In this document: positions 43,568 to 53,272 of the stretch, piece after piece | Layout of the letters: every line of letters starts with the position of its first letter | How positions within the stretch are numbered: position 1 is the stretch's first letter | Assembly: GCA_013822345.1 (NCBI GenBank) | Contig: PNKH01000013.1 | Span: forward strand, 1-64,000 | Length of the DNA: 64,000 nucleotides | Direction: 5' to 3' | DNA from: Isosphaera sp. | GTDB lineage: Bacteria > Planctomycetota > Planctomycetia > Gemmatales > Gemmataceae | Made by a program: the position numbers and the translations under genes | Notes under the pieces: model-generated | Told to the model about the DNA's origin: nothing | Seen by the model: the letters and a program-made list of their open reading frames with translations, nothing else | Databases searched by the model: none

Positions 43568-44407
43568 TCACACCTTCTTGTAGGGCGTGGTCAACTCGAA
43601 GGTGCCGTCCGGGAGGGGGACGCGGGTGTAGTCGCCGAACAGGTTCGGGCTGTCCTTCTGAAGGAGGTCGAGGAGCTTGCCGGCGAGCTTGCGGATCTCC
43701 GGCTCGGCGTGGCGGCTGCCCCGCTGCTCGAGGAAGTGCCGGAGGGCGCGGGCGTTGGCGGTGACGAAGATCTTCGTCTCGGTGGCGTTCGGCAGGACGC
43801 TCCGGGCGGCTTGGCGGGCGGCCTTCCGGCGGGCGGTGCGGTCGGACCCGTCGGCGAGCATCGCGGCGGCCGCGGCCTGAGGGTCGGCAAGCTTGGCGTT
43901 CAGCATCTCGGCGAGTCGGACGTACGCGGCATGGGCATTGGTCACCGCTTCGAGCCAGACGGCGTGCAGTTCCGGGTCGGCCGCGATCACGTCGGGCTCG
44001 ACGTACTCCGCGGCGGACTCGTCCACGTACCGCTGAGAAAGCTGGCTGTACGCCCACCCGGACCGATGACGCACCCACTCATGCGTCAAGCTACGCGAGA
44101 TGCCGGTGACGACGAAGTTCCAGACCGCGTGCTCCAGCACCGACCCGTGCCCGACTTCCTTGATGTGATTCAGGTAAGCGCTGTTCCCGCCCGGCCTCGG
44201 CCGGGCGTAGCTGAGGTAGCACAACCGGCCGGCCGACTCGGCGAGCACCTCGGCCGCGACCTCGCTGTCGCTCTCCCAACTCACCCCGTGGTTATTCAGG
44301 AAGCGATCGAGTTCCGCGTCGTCGGTCGTCTGGCGGCCGACAACGTAGACGGTAGGCTCGGTGATGATGCGAACGTCGGCGTCCAACTTGGAGGCAACCG
44401 AGACCAT
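43568..44407 (-). CDS. thyX: Flavin-dependent thymidylate synthase
   Basis: A 279-residue FAD enzyme making dTMP from dUMP using methylene-tetrahydrofolate and NADPH. The ThyX core reads VGHGSVLEHAVWNFVVTGIS, then R-H-R-S-G-W-A-Y-S-Q-L-S-Q-R-Y, which departs from the usual RHRxxSxNExSxRY by replacing the N-E pair with S-Q. Flavin-site Arg/His and the C-terminal R-A-L-R-H-F-L-E-Q-R-G are present. Start at ATG 44407 (MVSVASKLDADVRI); ATG 44443 is a longer alternative. ThyX does not produce dihydrofolate, which fits organisms with reduced need for classical dihydrofolate reductase. Confidence 0.93.
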   Translation of the reverse strand: MVSVASKLDADVRIITEPTVYVVGRQTTDDAELDRFLNNHGVSWESDSEVAAEVLAESAGRLCYLSYARPRPGGNSAYLNHIKEVGHGSVLEHAVWNFVVTGISRSLTHEWVRHRSGWAYSQLSQRYVDESAAEYVEPDVIAADPELHAVWLEAVTNAHAAYVRLAEMLNAKLADPQAAAAAMLADGSDRTARRKAARQAARSVLPNATETKIFVTANARALRHFLEQRGSRHAEPEIRKLAGKLLDLLQKDSPNLFGDYTRVPLPDGTFELTTPYKKV

Positions 44408-48739: not shown

Positions 48740-50017
48740 TCACGCCCCGGCGACGACCGGCAGGACGTACGGCCCCTTCGGGATGACCGCCACCGTCGCC
48801 CCGGGGCCGTACCCCGCCAGCGCCTCCGCCACCGCCGCCTCCACCGACTCCGCCGGCTCCACCCGGCACCGCCGCAGCACCTCCGCCGGCAGCCCGCCCG
48901 ACACCACCCTCACCCGGCAGTGCGCCAGCACCTTGTTCAGCATCACCAGCTGCCACTCGTCCATCTCGCAGGTATCGCCGGCGGCCGGCTTCGCGTACCG
49001 CCCGCCCTCCTCGTACTCCCGCAGCCGCTCCCGGAACTCCGGGCTCCCCAGCCCCTCCGTCAGGCTCGCCGCCAGCACGATCGTGCCGCCCTTCTTCACC
49101 ACCGGCATCGCCCCGGTCAGCCCCTTCACCGCCTGGTACCACGTCGTGTCCAGCGGGTACCCGGCGCAGCTCGTCACCACCACGTCGGCCGGGGCCGGCA
49201 CCGTCGCCTTGACCACCTCCCGGCAGAACCGCACCCCTTCCTCCCACGCCTTCACCATGTCCCCCGCCCCGAGCCACGTCACCTTCCGCTTCCCGTCGAT
49301 GCACACGTTTACGATGAAGTCGCACCCGGCCATCTTCGCGATGAGCGTGTTCTCCTCGTGCACCGGGTTCCCGTCCACGCTCCCGCAGTCCGCCTTCGGG
49401 TGCTGGAGGAACCGCGGGCCGTGCCACACCTTGACCGTCTCCAGCGCCGCGATCCCCGGGCAGACCAGCTTCCGCCCGCCGCTGTACCCGGCCATCAGGT
49501 GCGGCTCGATCAGCCCGGTCGTGATCTTCAGCTCCGCCCGGGTGTACCGCTTGTCGATCCACGCCGGCACCCCGTTCGGCGTCGTCCCGAGGTACTCGTG
49601 CTCGTCGCGTTCCTTCCCGTGGTGATTCTCGCACCGATAGTTCGCGGCCACCTCCGGGCCGACCAACTCGACCAACTCGTCGCCCTCGTTCGGCCGGTGC
49701 AACCCTGTCGCGACGAGGATGGTGATGCCCGACCGCGGGACGCCGGCGGCTTCGATCGTGCGGAGGATCGGCGGCAGGAGGAAGGCGTTCGGGACCGGGC
49801 GGGTGATGTCGCAGACGACGACGCAGGCGGTCTTCTTCCCGCGGGCCAGGTCGGAGAGCGGCGGGGTGCCGGTCGGGTGGGCGAGGGCGTCGTCGAGGGC
49901 GGCCGCCGGGTTCGGCAGCGGGTCGGCCGGGCGGATGGCCAGCGGCGGGGCGACCAGCCGGTCGTCCGGGAGGGTGACGTCGAGGCCGGTCTTGCCGTAG
50001 TCGAGGGTGACGCGCAT
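48740..50017 (-). CDS. larA: Lactate racemase LarA-type nickel-pincer enzyme (DUF2088)
   Basis: A 425-residue protein. Motifs of LarA are present: [10 protein letters not shown], the His in [30 protein letters not shown] (the Lys that tethers the pincer cofactor plus a ligand His), and [13 protein letters not shown] (another ligand His). The C-terminal domain has [15 protein letters not shown]. Family members racemise lactate or other 2-hydroxyacids. The larB, larC and larE genes needed to make the pincer are not in this window, so maturation must rely on genes elsewhere. It is in a same-strand run with no clear pathway neighbour. Confidence 0.88.
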
Positions 50018-51715: not shown

Positions 51716-51982
51716 ATGTCCATCGACAAGAGCCTGCGGCGCAAGGGCGGGATGACCCGGACCCGGTGTGTCCTGACCCGGGCCGAGCGGATCGCCAAGA
51801 TGATGGAGAACGGCCAGTGGGCCGACGGCAAGAGCCCGTACGGGCTGCCGAAGACCCGGGTCCAGAAGATCGTCCTGAAGAAGAAGGCGAAGAAGGAGGC
51901 GGCCGAGGGCGACGCCGCGGCCGCCCCCGCCGCCGGTGCCGCCCCCGCCGCCAAGCCGGCCGCCGGCGCGGCGAAGAAGTAA
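51716..51982 (+). CDS. PVC small basic protein (TIGR04137-like) with Lys/Ala tail
   Basis: An 88-residue protein: [40 protein letters not shown], and [16 protein letters not shown]. This matches the small basic protein family shared by Verrucomicrobia, Chlamydiae and planctomycetes (the L-T-R-A-E-R-I and P-x-G-L-P-K-T-R-V motifs are diagnostic). The remaining 25 or so residues are an Ala/Lys/Pro low-complexity tail, longer than usual. The role is unknown; a ribosome link has been suggested for the family. It stands alone between divergent DUF1559 and the folK fusion on the same strand, 69 bases upstream of the latter. Confidence 0.85.
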
Positions 51983-52051: not shown

Positions 52052-53272
52052 ATGACCCTCGCCCACGTCACACTCGGGTCGAACCTCGGCGACCGGTGGG
52101 ACGCCCTGTCGGCCGCCGTCCGCCGGCTGCGGGCCGAGCCCGGGCTGCGGGTGGCCGCCGCCTCCGGGTTCTACGAGACCGCCCCGCTGGACTGCCCGCC
52201 CGGGTCCGGGGCGTTCCTCAACGCGGTCGTCGCCGTCGAGACCGACCGCGCCCCCGACGACCTCCTGCAGCTGCTCCTCCGCGTCGAGCGCGAGTTCGGC
52301 CGGGTCCGCGCCGAGCCGAACGCCCCCCGCACCCTCGACCTCGACCTCGTCCTCTACGGCGACCGGGTGGTCGACACCCCCGGCCTGGTCGTCCCGCACC
52401 CGCGGCTGCACGAGCGGGCGTTCGTCCTCGTCCCGCTCGCCGAGATCGCCCCGGACGCCGTCCACCCGGTCCTCGGGAAGACGGTGCGCGACCTGGCCGC
52501 CGCGGTCCCGCGCGGCGGCGTCCGACCGGCGCCGCGCCCCGGCAACGCCGGCCGGTCGCTCACCGGCCTCCGGGCGCTGGTCACCGGCTCGACCAGCGGG
52601 ATCGGGGCGGCCGTCGCGGCCGCGTTCGAGGACCACGGGGCCGAGGTGGTGCGGCACGGCCGGCGGGCGAAGCCCGACCCGGGCGAGCGGTTCGTGTCCG
52701 CCGACCTCGCCGACCCGGCGCAGGTCGACCGGCTCGCGGCCGAGGCGTGGGACCTCCTCGGCGGGCTCGACGTGCTCGTCCTCAACGCCGGGGCCGACAC
52801 CCTCACCGGGGCCGCCGCGAGGTGGTCGTTCGACCAGAAGCTCGACGCCCTCCTCGCCGTCGACCTGAAGTCCACCGTGCGGCTGGCGCGGGCGGTCGGG
52901 GGGCGGATGAAGGGGCGCGGCCGGGGGGTGGTGCTGACGGTCGGGTGGGACCAGGCGGAGACCGGGATGGGGGGCGACAGCGGGGAGTTGTTCGCGGCGG
53001 TGAAGGGGGCGGTGACGTGCTTCACCCGCAGCCTGGCGGTGAGCCTCGCCCCGGAGGTGCGGGTGAACTGTCTCGCCCCGGGGTGGGTGCGGACGGCGTG
53101 GGGGGAGACGGCGTCCGCCGCGTGGCAGGAGCGGGTCCGCGACGAGACTCCGCTCGGGGTGTGGGGGCTGGCGGAGGACGTGGCGGCGGCGGCGGTGTGG
53201 CTGGCGGGCCCGGCCGCCCGGTTCGTCACCGGGCAGACGGTGCGGGTGAACGGCGGGGCGGTCCGGGCCTGA
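52052..53272 (+). CDS. folK: Fusion: HPPK (folK) and short-chain dehydrogenase/reductase
   Basis: A 406-residue bifunctional-looking protein. Residues 1-155 are 6-hydroxymethyl-7,8-dihydropterin pyrophosphokinase: GSNLGDR, FYETAPL, and the signature [14 protein letters not shown]. Residues about 172-406 are an SDR Rossmann domain: [33 protein letters not shown], and [20 protein letters not shown]. The SDR active site is altered: catalytic Tyr of YxxxK is Phe (L-F-A-A-V-K), the Asn helix reads A-V-D-L-K-S, and no Ser sits in the usual strand (VVLTVGWDQ). The Lys remains. A pterin reductase role like FolM/PTR1 is attractive given the fusion, but the residues argue for caution. A terminator palindrome follows. 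Confidence 0.88.

Follow-up and report, generated by a model that had tools for sequence, protein, structure and literature searches.

The window (the whole stretch of 64,000 nucleotides that was analysed) contains at 52052..53272 of the forward strand a single ATG-started open reading frame of 406 amino acids plus the stop codon, in which a pterin pyrophosphokinase (HPPK) is joined to a Rossmann-fold short-chain dehydrogenase (SDR), as the original prediction had proposed. The first half (residues 6–134, 52067..52453, forward strand) matches the Pfam HPPK family PF01288 over the whole profile length (E 3.3e-36, 124.7 bits with a cut-off of 25.7) and the NCBIfam FolK model TIGR01498 (133.3 bits, cut-off 54.1). 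Residues 181–402 match adh_short_C2 (E 1.6e-40), and the SDR domain, recognized by PF13561/PF00106, the AlphaFold2 model and PDB fold matches, comprises residues 169–406 (52556..53269, forward strand). Among the NCBIfam matches listed all SDR models stayed below their own cut-offs, and up to an E-value of 0.01 the Pfam matches of the protein were restricted to HPPK and SDR/Rossmann families, DHFR_1 being absent. The AlphaFold2 model of the whole fusion has a mean pLDDT of 93.3 and that of the SDR domain alone of 91.8. In the HPPK domain, Glu79, Arg93, Asp96, Asp98 and His116 are invariant in all 42 fused rows of the alignment, and the catalytic residues are presumably found among these acidic, arginine and histidine positions. 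Judged by these residues the HPPK half of the fusion is normal and intact, and it is the sole HPPK found in the genome.

Just upstream of the fusion gene, an open reading frame ending at 51982 on the forward strand encodes a small basic protein (TIGR04137), a relative of which occupies this place in 11 fused loci. At 48743–50017 the reverse strand encodes a lactate racemase-like protein, which has LarA domains and scores under the equivalog cut-off of NCBIfam; its relatives lie upstream in 14 fused loci.

The SDR domain presents the Rossmann fold and the TGxxxGxG motif of classical SDRs (TGSTSGIG in this protein; seen in the model and the fold matches), and the positions of the Asn-Ser-Tyr-Lys tetrad are occupied by Asp-Trp-Phe-Lys. 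Asp271 (52862..52864), within the helix motif A-V-D-L-K-S, takes the place of the asparagine, Trp299 that of the catalytic serine, and Phe314 (52991..52993) that of the tyrosine; only the lysine, Lys318 (53003..53005), is kept. The state of these four positions, all encoded on the forward strand, had been read correctly from the sequence beforehand. The residue following Trp299, Asp300 (52946..52951 for the pair, forward strand), is an additional invariant position that had not been listed.

Pooling of the sequences gave 161 distinct orthologs, 158 of them with the active-site columns, which were compared with 36 paralogous SDRs. The Asn column holds Asp in 156 orthologs and Glu in 2, and the Ser column Trp, the next position Asp and the Lys column Lys in all 158. 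The Tyr column, whose conservation had been named in advance as a check, holds Phe in 154 and Tyr in 4 (L132 and L137, both Singulisphaera, L160 and L174). The paralogs have Asn in 34 cases, Tyr in 35 and Lys in 36, and their Ser column contains Ser (23), a gap (10), Thr (2) or Asp (1). Two family-specific polar residues, Asp249 and Lys263, are fixed in the orthologs with one exception each. An intact Ser-Tyr-Lys-Asn set was seen in none of the 158 orthologs, and a recent mutation of a single strain is ruled out by a pattern that is fixed or nearly so in all of them. The change of the tetrad is ancient and conserved, in a pattern far beyond chance.

An ortholog was present in 54 of the 59 relatives searched, with scores of at least 195 bits; the best full-length paralog reached 94.5 bits, and two short fragments of the ortholog class 111 (G013) and 108 bits (G018). 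In 40 of these 54 relatives, all within the order of the window, HPPK and the SDR share one gene; that of G018 is truncated at the end of a contig and lies in two frames. The remaining 14 relatives belong to other families of the class and have the SDR unfused. Where sampled, only the window's order has the fusion, and the SDR stands alone elsewhere; a separation of folK and SDR in all relatives, which would have refuted the original prediction, was not found. When each species was represented by one genome, 510 pattern matches were obtained, 478 of them encoding stretches; the best 80 of the 478 were kept, and 56 of these are fused. In a quick tree, with 60 of its 134 inner branches open, the orthologs form one clade with respect to 12 paralogs (SH-aLRT 99). 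The tree requires two changes of the fused state and four of the Phe/Tyr state, for which the simplest reading would be one early change from Tyr to Phe followed by three returns to Tyr.

As proof of function the fusion is weakened by the observation that HPPK also joins a deoxynucleoside kinase in other planctomycetes. In planctomycetes without the HPPK-SDR fusion, four of the six long HPPK frames examined contain a deoxynucleoside kinase domain (PF01712; L235:1860-3263, L236:2264-3361, L237:2301-3542 and L238:1715-3034). A more divergent SDR was found at L193–L212 (family f6; f102 for L210), with E-values against the profile reaching 8e-72, in part because matches were truncated. Trp-Asp and Phe are kept there where the columns are present, and DHFR is common in family f6.

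Classical SDRs of the FabG/glucose dehydrogenase type have the Asn-Ser-Tyr-Lys tetrad. They are the nearest PDB entries by sequence (3emk_A, E 2.6e-33) and the top PDB rows in a fold comparison of the SDR model (3emk_A, Z 31.4, rmsd 2.1 over 226 residues), and the window SDR differs from them in its Asp-Trp-Phe-Lys set and in the invariant Asp after the Trp. These fold matches are generic FabG-type ones that do not separate functions, and the absence of PTR1 among the matches listed excludes nothing. PTR1 and FolM, which reduce dihydropterins (PTR1 also folates), resemble the window SDR in the SDR fold, in the Asp of the PTR1 triad and in the retained Lys. However, they carry a TGX3RXG motif (accessible text of PMC1971073) where the window SDR reads TGSTSGIG, and the Arg position of that motif is Gly in all 158 orthologs having the column. 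As regards the Asp-Tyr-Lys triad of PTR1/FolM (available portion of PMC8996148), the Lys is kept, the Tyr is Phe, and the Asp comes one residue late, the Asp column of FolM being Trp in this family. Against the family profile E. coli FolM reached 68 bits, and 19 of the 20 paralogs scored from the window's own genome rank above it. The SDR may work like PTR1/FolM, but by motif it falls outside that family.

The surroundings of the unfused copies point to a different pterin pathway from that of folate, the synthesis of the one-carbon cofactor tetrahydromethanopterin (H4MPT). A first clustering of the neighbourhoods was dominated by antisense frames of high-GC DNA; these were filtered out by codon composition, and the loci were then compared with 13 identified reference proteins of the H4MPT/methanofuran pathways. 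Neighbourhoods were counted over distinct orthologs in loci of at least 6 kb (60 shorter loci left out, the window's own included). At least one reference protein lies nearby in 27 of the 36 unfused loci, two of the 27 having supplied references. Neighbours in the 36 loci are DHPS-like proteins (25), DUF447 (17), beta-RFAP synthase (12), FhcB (12), FhcA (11) and MCH (8). In Singulisphaera acidiphila (L132), curated models identify fhcC, D, A and B (formylmethanofuran dehydrogenase C, A and B and the formyltransferase FhcD) divergent from the genes for the SDR, a DHPS-like protein, DUF447 and a beta-RFAP synthase family protein. The DHPS-like protein belongs to DUF6513, with TIGR00284 below its cut-off, and the beta-RFAP synthase family protein is above the cut-off of TIGR00144 and below that of NF040726. 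Outside the class, four genomes from three families (G120, G171, G201 and G186) share one order on one strand: mch, MptN-like, CitG, PTPS, SDR, DHPS-like and PabB/TrpE-like. MptN-like here denotes an ATP-grasp ligase; the MptN and PTPS/QueD equivalog models are below cut-off and the names are given by similarity. At L254:8511-9935, inside the H4MPT operon, CitG and a PTPS domain share one open frame.

The distribution of the SDR follows that of mch. In a phylum sample of 246 genomes (mch by PF02289; SDR orthologs at 338 bits or more, the next score being 182), mch was found in 22 and the SDR in 21; all 21 have both, one has MCH only and 224 have neither. Six of the 21 lie outside the class and are spread over four families. 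The genome with mch and no SDR (G237) has an H4MPT cluster with mch, fhc and a DHPS-like gene. A pterin-4a-carbinolamine dehydratase is encoded in this cluster (L257, G237:C49:17000-34000) between the FhcD-like and DHPS-like genes. In the class sample (347 genomes at least 90% complete), 315 genomes have both SDR and MCH, 11 the SDR only, 10 MCH only and 11 neither (odds ratio 31.5, p 1e-9, a value that ignores kinship among the genomes). Six of the ten MCH-only genomes (G030, G033, G373, G308, G462, G503, G529, G549, G574 and G577) are assemblies of at least 340 contigs, and DHFR is present in G030, G033, G308 and G462. Taken with the operon context, this distribution makes it very probable that the SDR belongs to the H4MPT system.

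The H4MPT pathway of planctomycetes has a reported gap at its final reduction. Afp, for which DmrA is a non-homologous substitute in Methylobacterium, is described as unrecognized in planctomycete genomes in the accessible text of Chistoserdova 2016 (PMC5020050). In the tree of Burton 2018, planctomycete DHFR homologs group with DfrA and not with DmrA, an NADPH-dependent protein that resembles DHFR_1 (available portion of PMC6193120). In 80 genomes AfpA (TIGR02699) was found above cut-off in none, compared with two of 14 control genomes; the profile gave 16 partial hits of at most 31 bits, and a bacterial DmrB might fall below the cut-off of the model. The SDR is a candidate for filling this gap. 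Dihydromethanopterin reduction is its most likely reaction, and a probability of about one half is given to the reading in which the SDR uses NADPH to reduce a dihydropterin within the H4MPT pathway, its substrate most likely being dihydromethanopterin at the last step of the synthesis. The choice of this step among the reductions of the pathway depends on the reductase gap reported there. Known enzymes of this reaction, DmrA (DHFR-like) and DmrB/AfpA/DmrX (flavoproteins), are not SDRs. Several observations stand against an H4MPT reductase: the fused gene lies outside any H4MPT cluster, with none of the 13 reference proteins matched within the 64 kb window and the mch of its own genome on a different contig; only 6 of 65 fused loci of at least 6 kb have any reference protein near, of the MfnB/MfnF type; 9 of the 36 unfused loci have none; and the 11 and 10 discordant class genomes and the SDR-less cluster of G237 break the co-occurrence.

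Other reductive steps of H4MPT synthesis can also be considered, for example a reduction that opens the ribofuranosyl ring in the arylamine intermediate, or one of the side chain of a PTPS-made pterin (as by sepiapterin reductase), and SDRs usually reduce carbonyls. A role in one of these steps would fit the position of the SDR between PTPS and the DHPS-like gene in the four loci outside the class and the beta-RFAP synthase of 12 unfused loci. It is nevertheless considered unlikely, for the loss of Ser and Tyr and the change of Asn to Asp argue against ordinary carbonyl reduction and the reported gap sits at dihydropterin reduction. A Rossmann oxidoreductase in an H4MPT cluster could also serve as methylene-H4MPT dehydrogenase (the Mtd role), but planctomycetes have MtdC, of the Mtd family (accessible text of PMC3505017), and this assignment is very improbable.

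For dihydromethanopterin reduction, the following course can be proposed. HPPK makes the activated pterin, which feeds folate and, presumably, H4MPT, and in the window's order it is fused to the SDR. Lys318 and the Rossmann fold would hold NADPH, hydride would be delivered to C6 of a 7,8-dihydropterin, and the N5 proton would come from water or from an acid such as Asp300 and not from a tyrosine. The enzyme would be expected to reduce dihydropterins and not fully oxidized pterins. In PTR1 the nicotinamide is held in position by Lys198, and a proton acquired by Asp181 reaches the substrate through Tyr194; in the second reduction the proton comes from water (available portion of PMC8996148). The restriction to dihydropterins is suggested because the Tyr of PTR1 acts in the first reduction, from the oxidized to the dihydro form, and not in the second; an enzyme that meets only dihydropterins could therefore dispense with it. 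FolM is reported to be inactive on oxidized biopterin (accessible text of PMC1971073) and yet carries the Tyr in our alignment, so that the loss of Tyr is not required for that specificity, and since four orthologs have Tyr, Phe would not be strictly required either. Asp300 is placed by the alignment one position after the Asp column of FolM, and its equivalence to Asp181 of PTR1 is at most putative.

With three of the four classical tetrad residues replaced, the SDR could instead be non-catalytic, that is, a pterin or NADPH sensor, a scaffold, or a partner of HPPK and of the DHPS-like enzyme. However, the lysine and the glycine motif are kept, Asp300 is found in 158 of 158 orthologs and Asp249 and Lys263 are nearly fixed, the three presumed returns from Phe to Tyr make more sense if the active site works, and the unfused protein is widespread without an attached HPPK. 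Such a role is improbable, and the regulator or scaffold of the original prediction has become less likely given the glycine motif, the lysine and the biosynthetic operon context.

The relation to folate was followed through DHFR. A search of the window's own genome (95.2% complete) for folA, made as had been suggested, did not find DHFR (PF00186, DHFR_1). Two SDR-negative family members in an 80-genome set (G030 and G033) have DHFR, and for this reason a replacement of FolA by the SDR was suspected; weak partial matches in G008 (22.8 bits) and G013 (26.7 bits) were disregarded. In the class sample (DHFR threshold E 1e-10) the SDR was found in 326 and DHFR in 108 of the 347 genomes, DHFR being present in 10 of 21 SDR-negative and 98 of 326 SDR-positive ones, and the association between them was not significant (Fisher p 0.14). 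Simple FolA replacement was rejected on this count and on account of G030, G033 and G373, which have neither SDR nor, at E 1e-8, HPPK. These three genomes have MCH and may be folate auxotrophs salvaging folate. The earlier proposal of a pterin or dihydrofolate reductase as in FolM/PTR1 thus survives as regards a dihydropterin-type reductase; its pointer to the pathway does not, the SDR tracking H4MPT genes and not DHFR, and the TGX3RXG motif is missing. ThyX, which had also been noticed, is present in the window at 43646–44254 on the reverse strand. It was not relied on as a general planctomycete trait, being found in 60 of the 80 genomes examined here and in just one of the six planctomycetes tabulated in the accessible part of PMC5954106.

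A dual role, with reduction of both dihydromethanopterin and dihydrofolate by an SDR standing in for FolA in planctomycetes that have no DHFR, is a tentative extension that is doubtful at present. The SDR occurs in 228 of 239 DHFR-negative class genomes, its partner serves folate as the sole HPPK found in the genome, and PTR1 acts on pterins and folates (available text of PMC1618733). Among the 22 MCH-negative class genomes the SDR is found in 10 of 15 without DHFR versus 1 of 7 with DHFR, but this effect is weak (p 0.06), with 4 of the 7 from one genus and few independent lineages. The SDR is also kept in 98 DHFR-positive genomes, and five genomes of one family that have no SDR, DHFR or MCH keep HPPK (with ThyX in the one tested, G052); if these make folate, another dihydrofolate reductase must exist there.

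Planctomycetes bear on the debate over the spread of the methanogen-type C1 pathway, and this SDR family offers a concrete and widely conserved candidate for the reductase finishing their H4MPT. No title or abstract opening surfaced by the literature search names the family or the fusion, and older papers on planctomycete C1 genes may mention the gene. A dihydromethanopterin reductase of this type, if true, would bring a new class of enzyme to this step and an SDR able to reduce a C=N bond although the classical Tyr is missing, and it may also explain tetrahydrofolate synthesis in planctomycetes that have no DHFR. One could go further and speculate, with little confidence as yet, on a dihydromethanopterin reductase of a third class, not homologous to the known ones: an SDR with a Trp-Asp active-site motif and no Tyr that also reduces dihydrofolate, completes both C1 cofactors in FolA-less planctomycetes and is fused to HPPK in the Gemmata order. 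A comparable arrangement exists in H. pylori, where DHPS is fused to a flavin dihydropteroate reductase: as in the window, a folate-pathway enzyme carries a reductase domain and the bacterium has no FolA, but the partner is DHPS and the cofactor flavin. The Dhfr2 of H. pylori is marked '+#' in the table within the accessible text of PMC1971073.
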